A DNA stretch of 41,207 nucleotides. Origin: Clostridiaceae bacterium (lineage in GTDB: Bacteria > Bacillota > Clostridia > DSM-8532). How positions within the stretch are numbered: the stretch's first letter is position 1; every line of letters begins with the position of its first letter. The stretch lies in assembly GCA_012519655.1 (NCBI GenBank), contig JAAYPS010000113.1:1-41207 (forward strand), written 5' to 3'. This document shows positions 7,326 through 40,910 of the stretch, piece by piece. A program made the position numbers and the translations under genes. The notes below the pieces were generated by a model. The model was not told where the DNA came from. It saw only the letters and a program-made list of their open reading frames with translations, and searched no databases.

Positions 7326-8372
7326 CTATCTTATTACTCGTCTTGCTGTATAATAAGTTCTACTATAATATGCCGAAGAAAGTGAGGATGTTTTAACTAC
7401 ATCTCCCGTTGAAGGAGCGTGTACAAACTTCCCGTCACCGACATATATTCCTACATGATTTACAGTTTTGCCATCAGCAGCAAAAAACACTAAATCGCCA
7501 TACTGCAAGTTGTCCTTTGACACGTATACTCCTGCCTTTGCTTGATCTCTTGATACTCTTGGTAGTGAGATTCCCAGTTTACCATAAACAGAGTATACTA
7601 ATCCTGAACAATCGTAGCTATTAGGACCTGTTGCACCCCATTGGTATGGTTTTTCCATTTCTTGCGACAGTAGAGTTTGTAGCTGCCCTGCAACATAGCT
7701 ATTACTACCACTGCGTGAGGGTAAATCATTCGATTCGATATACCGACCGCCAAAATTCTCATACATTCTTTGAAGGAAGGCTATGGCTTCTTCTTTTGAG
7801 GTGTATGCGCCAGGAACAAACATTTTATCTTCATTTCCGTTTACAACCCCGGTTTTACACAAATAGATAACCTCATTAACAGCCCATTTTGATATTGTAT
7901 TTTGATCTTTAAATATATATAGGATTTCGCTCTCAACATTACTGTTGGGTCTTGCTGCTTTTAATGTCCTATATAGCATGACAACAATTTCTTCACGTGT
8001 AGCAGTATTATTTGGCGCGAATAATCCATGTCCTATGCCATTGACGATGCCCAATTCATTTGCAACAATTACACTAGGATTTTGTGTATCACTAAATGGG
8101 TTGGAGTTTACATTAGGCAACTCTTTACCGCTAAGAGACCTATATAATTTAATAGTCAATTCAGTAAACTCTTCTCTCGTGATATAGCTAGTATAATTAT
8201 TCGTTACTTTATTTGTTAGCAGATTATAGTTATAAGCTTTTGAAATTTCAGGCTTTGCCCATTCACTTGCAGTGTTTAGGTTAATGTTCTGTTTCGCAAA
8301 GGATGGGACGGATGCAAACAGTCCTATCGATAAAATGGTTGAAATAAAGAAAATCTTATGTTTTTTAATCAT
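7326..8372 (-). CDS. Secreted SLH-domain NlpC/P60 peptidoglycan endopeptidase
   Basis: This 348-residue exported protein has a signal peptide (residues 1-27, ending near SFAKQ). Two to three S-layer homology repeats follow (about 37-80, 93-137 and 154-203) and anchor it to secondary wall polymers. The C-terminal NlpC/P60 domain (about 225-348) has catalytic Cys255 in YDCSGLV, His306 in VNHVGIY and a third polar residue near His318. It should cut stem peptides in peptidoglycan (D-glutamyl-diamino acid bonds in this family) during growth or daughter-cell separation. The gene appears monocistronic, with a REP-like palindrome after it. Confidence 0.92.
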   Translation of the reverse strand: MIKKHKIFFISTILSIGLFASVPSFAKQNINLNTASEWAKPEISKAYNYNLLTNKVTNNYTSYITREEFTELTIKLYRSLSGKELPNVNSNPFSDTQNPSVIVANELGIVNGIGHGLFAPNNTATREEIVVMLYRTLKAARPNSNVESEILYIFKDQNTISKWAVNEVIYLCKTGVVNGNEDKMFVPGAYTSKEEAIAFLQRMYENFGGRYIESNDLPSRSGSNSYVAGQLQTLLSQEMEKPYQWGATGPNSYDCSGLVYSVYGKLGISLPRVSRDQAKAGVYVSKDNLQYGDLVFFAADGKTVNHVGIYVGDGKFVHAPSTGDVVKTSSLSSAYYSRTYYTARRVIR

Positions 8373-8637
8373 ATTTATCTCCTCGTATTAAAGTAGTGGT
8401 GTCTCTTTGTTCTTAATGCAAAACGCTTCCAGAACTTACAACTTCTCGTCTACAAGGTAGTACATGTATTGTAAGCATAAAATATATTAACATAAGATTG
8501 AGTTATGTTAACTTACAAATCTCTTACATTATCATTACAACACTGAGCGTAATTGGATATATTTGGGGATAAAATGTGTTATTCATCTCAAAAACCGTAT
8601 TGCCATCTTTTTTGCCCAAATCATGACTTATATTAAA

Positions 8638-9435
8638 TTACAAATTAACAATTTCACCAGGATCAATTTTTACAGGTTGCCTATCGACACTTATCCAAAC
8701 AGGATTAGCTGAAGTATTATGAACTATTTTTCTGTTAGCACTGAACTTAAGGTTATGTAAAGACTTCATGTAATCCATTATTTCTATATTTGTTGCATAC
8801 CAAACTGAATCGTCAAAGGAAACACGTTTACTGAACTCTTCAATTAAGCACCAATTTTGTTGTCTGTTAAACTCAAAACTATGTCCCCACACATATAATA
8901 GAGTTAGTTTTTCCCAAGGAGTGGTCTTTTTGAACTCTTCCACTTTGTCAAGCAAATTTTCGTTATGATGGCATGTGGGATGCCAAGTTAAAAAATTAGA
9001 TGGCAATTCAAAGTTTCCTGTAGAATGTACCGTTCTTGAGTATTCAATTCCCAACACAGGGAGTATATTAAGCAATTCGTCATTATAATCACCGAACGGA
9101 TAAGACATTCCTCGAACAGGATAGCCCGTGAGCGACTCAAGATTTCTTCTATCATCCATTATCTCCCTAATAATCTCTTCCTTCGAAATTTGAGTAAGAA
9201 AGGGGTGAGTTAAGGTATGAACTGAGACTTCATGACCTTTATACAAGTTCTTTATTTCCGCGGATTTAACAAATTGTTCTTTATCAAAGTTACCCGAGTT
9301 TAAATGAAAAGTACCTTTAATATTATATTTGTTAAAAATGTCGATGAGCTCTCTGTCAAAAATTTGACCATCATCATAGCTCATGGTTAAAGCTTTTTTC
9401 TTTCCTTGTGGGAAACTGTAACATATTGTACTCAT
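8638..9435 (-). CDS. Polysaccharide deacetylase family protein (NodB fold)
   Basis: This is a 265-residue protein without a signal peptide. The NodB-homology domain carries SYDDGQ (metal-binding aspartate) and VHTLTHP (HxxxH), and then SYPFGDYN as the downstream motif. The late part reads LTLLYVWGHSFEF. The set fits carbohydrate esterase family 4 proteins acting on N-acetylated or O-acetylated sugars, and the cytoplasmic location suggests a small or intracellular substrate. The start is set by AAGGAGATGAT just before the ATG at 9435. An in-frame ATG at 9492 lacks a site. The substrate is not evident. Confidence 0.82.
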   Translation of the reverse strand: MSTICYSFPQGKKKALTMSYDDGQIFDRELIDIFNKYNIKGTFHLNSGNFDKEQFVKSAEIKNLYKGHEVSVHTLTHPFLTQISKEEIIREIMDDRRNLESLTGYPVRGMSYPFGDYNDELLNILPVLGIEYSRTVHSTGNFELPSNFLTWHPTCHHNENLLDKVEEFKKTTPWEKLTLLYVWGHSFEFNRQQNWCLIEEFSKRVSFDDSVWYATNIEIMDYMKSLHNLKFSANRKIVHNTSANPVWISVDRQPVKIDPGEIVNL

Positions 9436-9638
9436 AAAAATCATCTCCTTAAGCTGCATTATAGGATCTGTTGAAGTAAATGACAAGAACATTAATCTAT
9501 GGTATTTTACGATGCTAGATATTTTAGGCTAGCGCTCTAACATGGTCATTTTTGCAAAAGGTAAAGCAATTTTCAGTGTATCCATGTTCAGAATACACAT
9601 AATTAAGAATATTAAAGGCAATGAAAGATTGCATGAAA

Positions 9639-9686
9639 GTTAAACGGCCTGGCTCCGAACGAATGTTGGAACCAGACCATTTAAAC
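9639..9686 (-). repeat. Imperfect hairpin element forming the 3' end of the truncated response regulator gene
   Basis: Arms of about 20 bases (near 9640-9660 and 9665-9684) flank a GAAT turn. The mismatches at 9653/9671, 9648/9676 and 9645/9679 are all C-A on the plus strand, so they become G-U pairs in minus-strand RNA, with one bulged base. This points to selection for RNA folding on the minus strand. The element supplies the last 15 codons and stop of the upstream receiver protein. It looks like a small dispersed hairpin element that inserted into, or was left at, a truncated gene. Confidence 0.6.
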
Positions 9687-10161
9687 AGCACACAGGATAC
9701 CGAGCTGCAGTATGGAAGAGCTGCTCTATCTTTGGAGAAGTCAAATTGTTCGGTTCATCGGGGTTAATGGAAATAGGTCCGTTACGCTCGGTTATTTTTT
9801 TATCAAGAAGTCGAATAGTGTTTTCTACTTCTTCTTGAACGAAAGGTTTTAAAATATATTGGAATACTCCATATTCAAGAGCTTTACATGCAGCTTCAAA
9901 ATCTTTATAGGCGCTGATAAGGACAAATTCTATATCAGGGTCTTTCTCTCTTAAGGAAGAAATAAGTTGAATGCCAGACATTTTTGGCATTCGTATATCG
10001 GTAAAAACCACATCTGGTTTTATCTTGTGGATTTGTTCTAAAGCAACTTGAGGATCAGTAAACTTTGCAACAATTTTAAACCCTGCTGCCTCCCAGTTAA
10101 GTAATTCTTCTAATCCTGTTAAAATCCAAGGTTCATCGTCTATAAGGACAACTTTATTCAC
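9640..10161 (-). CDS. Truncated YesN-type response regulator (receiver domain only)
   Basis: The protein has 173 residues. Residues 1-120 are a complete receiver domain: acidic pair Asp8-Asp9, phospho-acceptor Asp55 in VVFTDIRMP, Ser83 and Lys105 in LKPF. The sequence style (FTDIRMPKMSGIQLI, LEYGVFQYILKPF) is that of YesN/AraC-type regulators, which normally continue to 250-540 residues with an AraC DNA-binding domain. Here that domain is missing. The last 15 residues (CLNGLVPTFVRSQAV) are encoded by a hairpin element, so the gene is probably a remnant or a receiver-only product. The GTG start at 10161 has GAGGTG upstream. No histidine kinase gene is adjacent. Confidence 0.8.
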   Translation of the reverse strand: MNKVVLIDDEPWILTGLEELLNWEAAGFKIVAKFTDPQVALEQIHKIKPDVVFTDIRMPKMSGIQLISSLREKDPDIEFVLISAYKDFEAACKALEYGVFQYILKPFVQEEVENTIRLLDKKITERNGPISINPDEPNNLTSPKIEQLFHTAARYPVCCLNGLVPTFVRSQAV

Positions 10162-10471
10162 TTATTACACCTCTATACAATAGCTGTTATTATACACAAC
10201 ATTTTTGGACAATTCGAAGAACGGATTACATAATGAATAATTTATATATTACAATTTTATGTTTACATATTTTTACCTTTATATCAATATACCTTCAGAT
10301 ACTGGAATTTGTCAAGTTTTTACGGCATATTATGTTAATCAATAGTATCAATGGATAAGAAAAAGATGGAAAATTTATTTTAAAGTGATATAATTTAAAT
10401 GCAGTAATAACTACTAAATACTAAGATAAGAAACCATTATTTGAGGTATTTAAAGAAGGGGAGGTTGTAAA
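10162..10471. other. Divergent intergenic region, response regulator and galM
   Basis: This 310-base gap is AT-rich and noncoding. A TATAAT (10389-10394) about 80 bases before galM is the best -10 candidate, but I see no convincing -35 box 17 bases upstream. AGGGGAGG before the ATG at 10472 (10458 onward) is a strong ribosome site. I see no palindrome or structured RNA. Confidence 0.4.
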
Positions 10472-11506
10472 ATGCAGGAGAGAGTATTTGGAAAAACACA
10501 AGATGGTGATGAGGTTATACTTTATACTATTGCCAACTCGAAGGGCATGAAGGCTGAAATAATAAATTATGGTGGAATAGTTGTATCTTTGTATGTTCCT
10601 GATGAGGACCAGAAGCAAATTGATGTTGTATTGGGCTGTGACAATTTAGAAGATTATCAAAATAGTCCATTTTTTGGAGCTATTGTAGGTCGTCACGCTA
10701 ATAGAATCGAAGGCGCTGTATTTGAATTGAACAAGAAAGAATACAAGCTTGTTAAAAACGATGGAAACAACCATCTTCATGGAGGGACAATTGGTTTTGA
10801 CAAAGTCATTTGGGATGTAATAGAGCATAATGAGAATACATTGAAATTGCATTATTTGAGTGTGGATGGAGAAGAAGGATATCCAGGAAACCTAGATGTT
10901 ACTGTTACTTATTCCATAACTGAAGATAATGGCTTATCAATTGAATATACAGCTAAATCTGACGCAGATACTGTAATAAATCTAACTAACCACAGTTATT
11001 TTAATCTATCAGGTCATAACTCAGGAGATATCCTCAACCATCAACTAAAAATTAATGCCGACAAGTTTACCTTTAATAATGAAGAATGCATTCCTACAGG
11101 GGAAATATTAAGCGTTGAAGGGACACCGATGGATTTTAGAGATTTTCGAACCATTGAACCTGGCATTAAGTCCGACAGTATACATATTAAAAACGGTGGT
11201 GGATATGACCACAACTTTGTGTTAAATGTAAGTGGGAAAGAACCTGAATTTGCAGCCGAGCTCTTTGATCCTTCAAGTAATCGCAGGATGAAGGTATACA
11301 CGACAAAGCCGGGAATACAATTTTATTCAGGAAACAGCATAGGCGCTCAAGTAGCTGGTAAGGATGGAGCAATTCACAGCAAATGGAGTGGACTATGTCT
11401 TGAAACACAGTTTTTCCCTAATGCAATGAAGCATAAACATTTTCCTTCTCCTATTTTAAGGGCGGGAGAATTATATCATCATATAACAATTTATAAGTTT
11501 GAATAA
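10472..11506 (+). CDS. galM: Aldose 1-epimerase (mutarotase)
   Basis: This 344-residue cytoplasmic enzyme interconverts alpha and beta anomers of sugars such as glucose, galactose or xylose. Conserved family pieces are present: GRHANRIEGAVFEL near residue 70, GGTIGFDKVIWD, the catalytic-histidine motif LTNHSYFNLSG, the sugar-contact stretch GYDHNFVL, and CLETQFFPNAMKH with the catalytic glutamate. Length is normal. The gene stands alone and is followed by an intrinsic terminator at 11653. Confidence 0.94.
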   Translation: MQERVFGKTQDGDEVILYTIANSKGMKAEIINYGGIVVSLYVPDEDQKQIDVVLGCDNLEDYQNSPFFGAIVGRHANRIEGAVFELNKKEYKLVKNDGNNHLHGGTIGFDKVIWDVIEHNENTLKLHYLSVDGEEGYPGNLDVTVTYSITEDNGLSIEYTAKSDADTVINLTNHSYFNLSGHNSGDILNHQLKINADKFTFNNEECIPTGEILSVEGTPMDFRDFRTIEPGIKSDSIHIKNGGGYDHNFVLNVSGKEPEFAAELFDPSSNRRMKVYTTKPGIQFYSGNSIGAQVAGKDGAIHSKWSGLCLETQFFPNAMKHKHFPSPILRAGELYHHITIYKFE

Positions 11507-17555: not shown

Positions 17556-17578
17556 TGTATTAATTCAATTGAATATAT

Positions 17579-17667
17579 GCCTACGGGAGCCAATGGTATA
17601 TGGCTGAGAGGGAGTTATAAACTCCGACCGTACAAACCTGATCCGGTTAATTCCGGCGTAGGGAAGG
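17579..17667 (+). promoter_or_regulatory. TPP (THI-box) riboswitch aptamer
   Basis: The conserved THI-box elements are in order: ACGGGAGCC (17583 on), GGCTGAGAG (17602-17610), the GGAGT/ACTCC hairpin (17611-17625), GACCG, ACCTGATC (17636-17643), and CCGG then GCGTAGGGAAG (to 17667). Closing helix P1 pairs CCTACG with CGTAGG. Bound thiamine pyrophosphate should favour the terminator directly downstream and shut off the ThiXYZ transporter. Confidence 0.95.
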
Positions 17668-17681
17668 GTGATTTTGGTTTC

Positions 17682-38552: not shown

Positions 38553-40910
38553 ATGAATCGATTTATTGGATCGAAAACTCTACGTAAAATTTTCATATAT
38601 GTTGTAACAACGGCTTTAATTATGGTACTTAGCATATCTAGTATTCTATACACAGATTATGAAAAGATTGGTCTGAAAACAGTCAACGACTATAATATCC
38701 GTTATCTTGGTCAAGTCAGCTATCATATTTCTTTTATGCTTGATTCTGTTTTTGAATACAGTGTTATGCAATATTCTGATCCAGATATCCAAAAGTTCAT
38801 GCATACAACAGAAACAGGGGATGTTGCTTACTTTAATTATATTAGAAGCATCGGTAGATTACAAAATACACTCCTTGTTTCTCCTATGATTCACTCCGTT
38901 GTACTTTATAATGTACATACCGATAGAGCATATTCAACCTCCCCAGTCGAGGGTAAGCAGGATGAACAACTGAATGACATATTCAAAAAAAGAAAAAATG
39001 TTGATATCCTAAAACCTATACCACGCATCATAAATAATGATGTTTATATCCGCGATAGAGCCTCTTAAAATGAAAGAATAAAACTGTTTACATTCTTTAT
39101 TGCCGATGGAATAACCCAAAGTAAACCTGAAAGTGCTTTAGCTGTAAATATGAGTACAGAATGGCTTTTTGACAATTTGAACTTGAGTACTACAAGTTTT
39201 AATGAAGATGAATCCAAATTGATGATTATTGATGAAAATGGAATAGTTGTTGCTGATGGCAGCGACTCGACAAGAGAGTTTGAAAAGCTGGAACAGATTT
39301 ATATTGATGAGATAGAAAGATTTAAAGAGCAAGGCGGTTCATTTATTGTTGAATTGCCTGATGATAAGAAGGTTGTGACCTGTTTTCCCATGCCAAATTC
39401 AAATTGGATTTTGGTTAATGAACAGCCTTATGACACAGTATTTTACTATATTAATCAAGCAAGAAGCAGAACAATTTTTGCGGTAGCAATATTTATTATA
39501 ATAACTATTATTGCAGCTTTTATCAGCTCGAAGAGCATTTATAATCCAATAAATAATATGGTTTATCAGATTAAACGCTCACTATCAAGAAATGTAGCTG
39601 CATCCAGCTCAGATAATGATTTTGCTTATATACAGAAAGCCTTTGATATAAGTATAAAGCACATAAATGAGCTGGAAGAATATAAGGAAAGTACCCGTGA
39701 TTTACTCAAAGAGTATACAATTAAAATGCTCATAGAAGATAATAATTCGCATATGCCCAATATTCCCGAGGGGACATTTGATGATATTGCTGTTTTGTCC
39801 CATAAAGGAGAAATGATTATTGTTTTACTAAAAATAGATCAATATGCAAAATTCATAGCGAAAGGAAATGATTATAGAAAATCTATCTTATTTATGATTA
39901 TAAACCGAATAGAAGAAGAACTGTCGGATAGATATGTGTTTGATATTATCACAATGGGTAATGGCGAAATTACGCTTTTTATTAATATCAGTGAAAATTT
40001 ACGCCGAAAAAGCATTATAGAAATTAAATCAATTATCTCAAGCATCCAGGAATATATTATTAGCGTAGCCGAAACATCTTTTAGCGCATTTATAAGCGAG
40101 CCGGTTAAGAGTCAAAAGTCTCTGTCCTCATGCTACATGGAGTTGAAAAAAGTTGTTAAATACCGCATTATGTATAGCTCAAAATGCATTTTAGATGAAG
40201 ATAGCATTAAATCAAAAATGACAGAAGTAGTTCATGAGTATCCTGAGAGTATTGAAGAAAATATTAATAAAAATCTCAAGACTGGGAATTTAGAGAACAC
40301 CTTGGCGGAATTTAGGTTATTTATGGACTATGTACAGGCTATGGATGTAGATAATTTCCTTATGAGCCTTTCCAGACTTGCGATTTCTATTAACAAAACC
40401 GTTAATCAAATTAATATTAATAGGATTGGAGAGATTAGTTTAAATTTCAATGAATTTTTCATCGCTATATCTAGCGCTGAAACAATTGATGATATTAAAA
40501 GTGAGTTCTGTAATTTAATTGTTTTAATAAACGAACAACAAGAAGAAACAACTCAAACAAGGAATCATCATATAGCACAGCTTATTATTGAATACATAGA
40601 ACAGAATTACAATGATAAGAGTTTAAATTTGAAGGAACTAGCATCTAATTTCAAAATTTCCTATGGATATATGCTGCTTATTTTTAAAGAAAGCCAGAAT
40701 CAATCTCTGCCAGAATACTTGAATATGGTTAGATTGAAAAAAGCCGCAGAACTTCTGTGTACAACTGGAGACAGTGTTTCAAAGATAATGAATAATGTTG
40801 GTTATGACAATGAAAGCAATTTCTACCGTTTGTTCAAAAAACACTTTGGAGCAACGCCGAGGCAGTACCGTATCAATAGAACAGCAGCACAAAAATCAAA
40901 TAGTACATAA
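38553..40910 (+). pseudogene. Membrane-anchored AraC-family sensor-regulator interrupted by one in-frame stop
   Basis: One reading frame of 786 codons runs from ATG 38553 to the stop at 40908-40910, except for TAA at codon 172 (39066-39068). Reading through gives ...RDRAS, stop, NERIKLFTFF, with no shift. Domains: transmembrane helix (about 10-33), extracellular sensor (about 35-305), second helix (about 307-326), cytoplasmic linker, and a C-terminal AraC DNA-binding pair (LKELASNFKISYGYMLLIFK; IMNNVGYDNESNFYRLFKKH, GATPRQYR). Such proteins usually lie next to LplB-type sugar transporters and control them; the transporter starts at 41061. If the stop is real, products would be a 171-residue membrane stub and a possible 586-residue fragment from ATG 39150. 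It could also be a sequencing error or a read-through. Confidence 0.8.

Follow-up and report, generated by a model that had tools for sequence, protein, structure and literature searches.

A truncated response-regulator gene and the probable relic of an IS150-type transposase gene end at a deletion junction in a Clostridiaceae genome

MITEs and REP/REPIN hairpins are short, mostly intergenic, imperfectly palindromic sequences that are linked to mobile elements. The present study deals with a hairpin of another kind, formed by the last codons of the transposase gene (orfB) of IS3-family insertion sequences of the IS150 type; the original paper on IS150 is that of Schwartz et al. from 1988. We found no description of such a codon-embedded hairpin among the literature matches listed, nor in passages of PMC6211511, PMC9208149 and PMC5771124, and its novelty is uncertain.

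The locus that we analysed lies in a stretch of 41,207 nucleotides from a Clostridiaceae bacterium, referred to below as the window. In an initial annotation, a YesN-type response-regulator gene of this window had been read as cut short by a small mobile hairpin element that supplied its C-terminus. We consider it probable that a deletion has instead removed about 6 kb from this locus, so that codon 160 of the regulator now abuts the terminal codons of a decayed, oppositely oriented IS150-type transposase gene, and that the hairpin of this gene end is, as we infer, a likely antisense terminator.

The truncated regulator and the genes missing beside it

The open reading frame at 9640-10161 on the minus strand has a GTG start and encodes 173 amino acids, in which hmmscan finds Response_reg (residues 4-116, nucleotides 9814-10152, E 4.4e-27) as the sole Pfam domain. 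The receiver is thus intact, and the AraC-type output domain is absent from the protein by the same search, both as had been proposed. Our orthologue search covered 61 genomes, namely the source genome (G000) and 60 relatives, and close orthologues were found in two genomes of the same genus, G003 and G001, with 72% and 66% identity over residues 1-160, while the next best match reached 49%. Far from being equally short, these orthologues are full-length proteins of 397 and 380 amino acids, in which Pfam recognizes both the receiver and an AraC-type HTH. A codon comparison showed that the homology of the window gene to both of them stops after codon 160, at the edge of the hairpin, so the reading of a truncated YesN-type regulator with its break point at that edge is borne out by the alignment. 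The surviving 160 codons, comprising the receiver and the linker, occupy 9682-10161 on the minus strand.

The gene order in G003 and G001 indicates how much has been lost. In both genomes, a deacetylase gene is followed by genes for a probable binding protein, two BPD_transp_1 permeases, a histidine kinase (on the opposite strand), the regulator, and an aldose epimerase. The Pfam assignments of this cluster were made on the G003 genes, and the probable binding protein, which has no Pfam family, was named by reading. The window retains the polysaccharide deacetylase at one flank of the deletion (8638-9492, minus strand, its real start probably being near 9435), the N-terminal 160 codons of the regulator and, on the epimerase side, the conserved aldose 1-epimerase gene (10472-11506, plus strand), the two flanking genes being assigned by Pfam and synteny. 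About 220 nt in the window correspond to about 6.2-6.3 kb at the same place in G003 and G001, so that about 6 kb are missing. The gene was therefore not merely interrupted by an insertion, as had been supposed, since the locus has lost the C-terminal part of its coding sequence along with four adjacent genes. Elsewhere in G000, no sequence matches the lost part of the regulator at more than 42% identity, which offers no clear candidate for a leftover AraC domain, a check proposed at the outset, and none matches the probable binding protein at more than 26%.

These comparisons suggest that a two-component and ABC-transport cluster lost everything from regulator codon 160 to the deacetylase side. 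The junction itself is placed at 9681-9684 by synteny and by the codon comparison with the two orthologues; there, codon 160 of the regulator (TTA, minus strand) is the complement of the presumed stop codon of the transposase gene (TAA, plus strand, 9682-9684). The junction could also be a misassembly, a point that we counted against our preferred explanation. G003 and G001 share a terminator-like stem of the CCGTATGAA type behind the binding-protein gene (L045, about 925-960, and L046, about 1625-1665). The window hairpin was considered as a homologue of these terminators and ruled out, the stems being unrelated in sequence.

The fate of the regulator stub can be weighed from its sequence. 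All of its 160 remaining codons are open, its pN/pS values are 0.20 and 0.26 relative to the two orthologues (the G003 deacetylase rows were left out of this comparison), and the acidic pair, the phospho-acceptor Asp and the Lys characteristic of receivers appear, by reading, to be present. On these grounds the stub might be a selected receiver-only protein, acting as a phosphate sink or partner, but we regard this as quite unlikely: the locus no longer contains the kinase gene, and purifying selection before the deletion accounts for the pN/pS values. In addition, the window has more unique changes in the regulator comparison (29, versus 6 and 15 in the orthologues), although the same tendency is seen in two adjacent genes (32 versus 19 and 24, and 27 versus 13 and 9). 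Because synonymous sites are saturated, the timing of the constraint is lost, and recent loss and maintained function are inseparable by these values. Loss of function is the better bet because both the kinase gene at the locus and the output domain are gone; what remains is most likely a receiver fragment without function, a truncated and probably dead gene beside an IS relic.

Two further features of the window were noted. At 17573-17681 on the plus strand lies a TPP riboswitch (Rfam RF00059, 73 bits), upstream of genes for a BPD_transp_1 permease, an NMT1/THI5-like protein and an ATPase-like ORF, which together look like a thiamine-precursor importer. At 38553-40910, also on the plus strand, two consecutive ORFs of 171 aa (no Pfam family) and 586 aa (AraC-type HTH) have the appearance of a single membrane-sensor regulator divided near 39069-39150, perhaps by a frameshift.

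The hairpin at the junction and its counterparts in intact IS elements

The hairpin occupies 9640-9684 and pairs best on the minus strand. For the RNA of 9620-9710, the predicted folding energy of the minus strand is -35.1 kcal/mol (z -6.39, with 0 of 200 shuffles as good), compared with -18.9 kcal/mol for the plus strand, which 15 of 200 shuffles equal. The stem contains one bulge and three U-G pairs, in all of which the U is in the 5' arm and the G in the 3' arm, so the mismatches are G-U pairs in minus-strand RNA, as had been noticed at the outset. It folds much better on the minus strand because these three pairs are C-A on the plus strand. The last codons and the stop of the regulator frame do fall inside the inverted repeat, but their number is 14 (codons 160-173) and not 15, and the repeat had initially been drawn 1-2 nt too wide.

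Read on the plus strand, the same 9640-9684 segment gives LNGLAPNECWNQTI followed by the stop codon at 9682-9684, which we presume to be what remains of an IS3-family (IS150-type) transposase gene, namely its 15 C-terminal codons, written LNGLAPNECWNQTI* with its stop. When an intact orfB protein was used as a query, its best tblastn match within 8301-10500 was the hairpin (residues 203-216, 57% identity, E 0.33, which is weak alone), in the position and register of intact elements. The hairpin core is identical to E. coli IS150 at 25 of 33 nt, ungapped. A possible further remnant, NERLHE at 9620-9637 on the plus strand, was seen in another frame by reading the translation, and an HMM search gave a non-significant i-Evalue of 3.9 on the stretch that includes it.

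The relation to intact elements emerged from a model, R1, made from six hairpins found by similarity with the window hairpin included, whose matches are leads only. The pair count of the alignment at this stage (A2) was weak, as 39 of 500 shuffles reached its percentage of paired positions and 15-23 of 500 its other measures. Similar hairpins with the same U-G pair are present in related genomes, and R1 matched 33 of the 291 class genomes, in several cases more than once per genome. Five equal-score matches in the genome G194 are the 3' end of orfB of an IS3-family element (NCBIfam transpos_IS3, E 5.8e-68), in which the codons for GLTPIEYRNQT form the hairpin. A hairpin lies at the same place in the last orfB codons of E. 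coli IS150, ISKpn8 and ISEnfa3, which were found by protein similarity. Three equal-score copies of a related hairpin were also observed in each of two other genomes, G203 and G168 (L107-L112), with IS right-end sequence about 22 nt away in both copies that were checked (L107 and L110); these copies are probably related IS elements.

We then compared the last codons of 25 IS3-family orfB genes with 300 synonymous recodings of each. The antisense fold beats all or all but one of the recodings in 10 of the 25 gene ends, including L141, for which none of 300 recodings folds as well in antisense when it is taken in the right frame. The other 15 are without a hairpin in that register: 15-30 of 300 recodings fold as well for L145-L147, and more for the others. 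The antisense fold is better than the sense fold in all ten elements, by 0.8 to 10.2 kcal/mol, and a T-rich stretch follows the stem on the antisense strand in most of them. The sense fold, too, surpasses most of its recodings (0-24 of 300 being as good), so selection could be acting on a hairpin that forms in both directions or on a palindrome in the DNA. The arms of the ten are of different types (GGTCTGA, AAGCTG, ATGGACT, AAGCAGCC, GGCGGCAC and AAGATGA), and four of the elements are identical at 39-45 of 48 positions and thus not independent. In their ungapped alignment (A3), in which L141 was shifted by one base beforehand, 12 of 16 pairs are changed on both sides (28 cells), a result that none of 500 shuffles reached, with counts that are inflated because the ten had been chosen from the 25 for folding.

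A second model, R2, was trained on these ten folding elements with the window left out. It matches 9640-9687 of the minus strand ungapped over all 48 positions (39 bits), with E 1.9e-9 in the window and 1.3e-7 in G000, scores that are inflated because a hairpin matches with both arms at once. On 43 control loci (163 kb) it gave no match at E up to 10. R2 was also run on the window and 33 loci, of which 16 were hairpin loci, 2 synteny loci and 15 IS3-gene loci; it matched 15 of the 16 hairpin loci (L073 was missed) and, among the IS3-gene loci, L148 alone, at 14.3 bits. A further 23 loci, mostly IS-bearing, were searched as well. It is important to note that this test is independent in training and not in discovery, as the trail to the ten elements began with the window hairpin.

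The initial proposal of a small mobile hairpin was correct, most likely, in its mobile-element origin. Insertion of a small autonomous hairpin element, or of a MITE/REP-like one, into the gene is nevertheless highly improbable, even though similar solitary hairpins occur in four genomes of the same family (G021, G026, G028 and G031). The same hairpin is coding sequence in intact IS elements, the loss of about 6 kb is more than an insertion, and the suggested search for further copies in G000 returned no second one, the next R2 match being at chance level (E 0.68). Sets of identical solitary copies flanked by target-site duplications were not seen either. The hairpin is thus probably not free-standing and mobile in itself; it more likely derives from the end of an oppositely oriented transposase gene.

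A general repeat search of the window gave no report of the hairpin, Rfam at its gathering cut-offs found nothing there, and no tRNA was found. An attC or REP-type site was among the readings set aside, this one by eye only. The 48-nt hairpin had no blastn match (E <=1) in plasmids or phages, in a search insensitive enough to miss the IS150-type ends in plasmid records, and an exact degenerate hairpin pattern, likewise insensitive, found nothing in viral contigs. A close autonomous IS copy was not found in G000, whose only IS3-type match is 34% identical. There is no IS right end (terminal inverted repeat) beside the hairpin, because regulator sequence takes over directly at the presumed stop codon of the transposase gene. 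The right-end motif of the G194 element is absent from the window (7 mismatches, 427 of 500 shuffles as good), in a test that also misses intact E. coli IS150 and the G028 element. With neither end of an IS recognizable at the locus, no flanks are left in which to compare a target-site duplication. The window relic is, for want of a right end, at best a fragment and not an element.

Solitary hairpins and the possible role as terminators

The 15 hairpin loci matched by R2, drawn from the R1 matches, include 14 solitary hairpins; the remaining one, L099, is the end of an AraC-type gene. For eleven of the 14, an ORF of at least 90 aa ends on the same strand 19-99 nt upstream, the exceptions being L043, L089 and L098, while on the other strand a gene end is found within 100 nt in three (L041, L057 and L071). 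Sequence like the IS right end of the G194 element stands 11-22 nt beyond five of them (L042, L043, L098, L101 and L102), with 0-10 of 500 shuffles as good. Residues of the transposase end are recognizable in six relics (L042, L089, L094, L098, L101 and L102), at E <=0.012 in all and <0.003 in five. Several relics have T-rich tails, and the tracts of L041 and L071 are better than that of the window, where a terminator scan that needs 5 T in 8 called none directly after the stem and the tract is weak.

Two observations were made along with these. In the locus L099 (1513-1545, genome G233), a gene whose product resembles AraC-type regulators also closes with such a hairpin and with the peptide GLTPTQYRNQT, which is similar to that of IS150 transposases; either two GxTPxxYR endings have converged by chance, or an IS relic has supplied the end of the gene. 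At 5060-5078 of L043, the contig end of G031:C535 reads CTGTCTCTTATACACATCT, presumably a transposase-based library adapter left in the assembly.

The positions of the solitary hairpins also bear on whether the window hairpin could be an ordinary terminator of the host with only an accidental likeness to IS150 ends. It is in favour of this reading that similar hairpins occupy terminator positions, that the protein-level evidence for the window copy is weak (E 0.33), and that a strict hairpin pattern found 4 sites in 2 of 291 genomes (one in G000 and three in G021), compared with 7 sites in 7 genomes for the mirrored control; such a pattern alone proves nothing, as it is not enriched over that control. 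We consider this reading unlikely, given the genome-wide E-value of the match to R2, which was trained without the window, and the fact that five of the 14 relics are followed by IS right-end sequence and six match the transposase end.

Taking the pairing strand and the positions of the relics together, it is plausible that the hairpin serves in the IS as an antisense intrinsic terminator. In an intact element, it would stop transcription that enters from the right end of the element. The simplest reading is a terminator that faces into the element from its right end and is sometimes kept by the host, where termination itself is an inference. In the window, the hairpin faces the transcript of the regulator, to which it gives the last 14 codons and the stop, and it could still end this transcript despite the weak T-tract.

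The break and the edge of the hairpin are no more than about 3 nt apart, which ties the hairpin to the deletion. Two orders of events fit. In one, the IS had inserted into the cluster and was involved in the loss; the missing IS right end argues against an IS-adjacent deletion of the textbook kind. In the other, the relic had been in place beforehand, ending transcription of the binding-protein operon that is now lost, and an unrelated deletion, of which the IS was not the cause, stopped at its edge. We give this second order slightly less than an even chance. G003 and G001 have a terminator-like hairpin at the corresponding position, with the binding-protein gene on one side and the deacetylase gene on the other. 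This hairpin, the downstream position of 11 of the 14 solitary relics and the strand, since the binding-protein operon is on the minus strand, are all consistent with the second order. Against it, the G003 and G001 stems are unrelated in sequence to that of the window, and it makes a break point so close to the hairpin a coincidence, unless hairpins favour breakpoints. The deletion scar with an abutting transposase gene end, our preferred explanation, is compatible with either order.

The locus itself is a case of ordinary gene decay beside an IS relic, and the IS-end hairpin is the more interesting part. We tentatively propose, with a confidence that falls a little short of even, that the last codons of IS150-type transposase genes hold an intrinsic terminator on the opposite strand, which is kept at the nucleotide level by compensatory and partly synonymous changes. 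In elements that died convergently behind host genes, this hairpin would survive through its use by the host as the terminator of the gene in front, making dead ISs a recurring source of terminators, of which the window would be an example at the edge of a deletion that reduced a regulator to a receiver stub. If this is true, the structure at the coding end of a widespread transposase, which forms better in antisense, would suggest how such elements shield themselves from transcription that enters from their neighbours, and would help to explain the position of solitary hairpins of this type behind host genes. The hairpin is also a searchable signature for IS relics that are too decayed for protein similarity.

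Comparison with known systems

The regulator stub resembles the YesN-type REC-AraC regulators in its receiver and linker, which are orthologous to the full-length genes of G003 and G001, but it is without the AraC output domain and the kinase gene is absent from its locus. The hairpin shares with MITEs and REP/REPIN sequences its short length, mostly intergenic occurrence, imperfectly palindromic form and link to mobile elements. It differs from them in that the window copy has no terminal repeats of its own, is not multi-copy here, and corresponds to the 3' end of a coding sequence and not to the end of an element.

With intrinsic (Rho-independent) terminators it has in common a stable GC-rich hairpin, and several relics are T-rich-tailed and located just downstream of genes. 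In the IS, by contrast, the hairpin is embedded in coding sequence and pairs best on the opposite strand, and the T-tract of the window copy is weak and uncalled. The hairpin also resembles that of the IS150 subgroup, represented by E. coli IS150, ISKpn8 and ISEnfa3, in which the last orfB codons, of the form G.(T/S)P..YR, are a hairpin at the same place that folds better in antisense. The window keeps only about 15 diverged codons of what is presumably such an element, with no right end, recognizable upstream orfB or close autonomous copy found in the genome.
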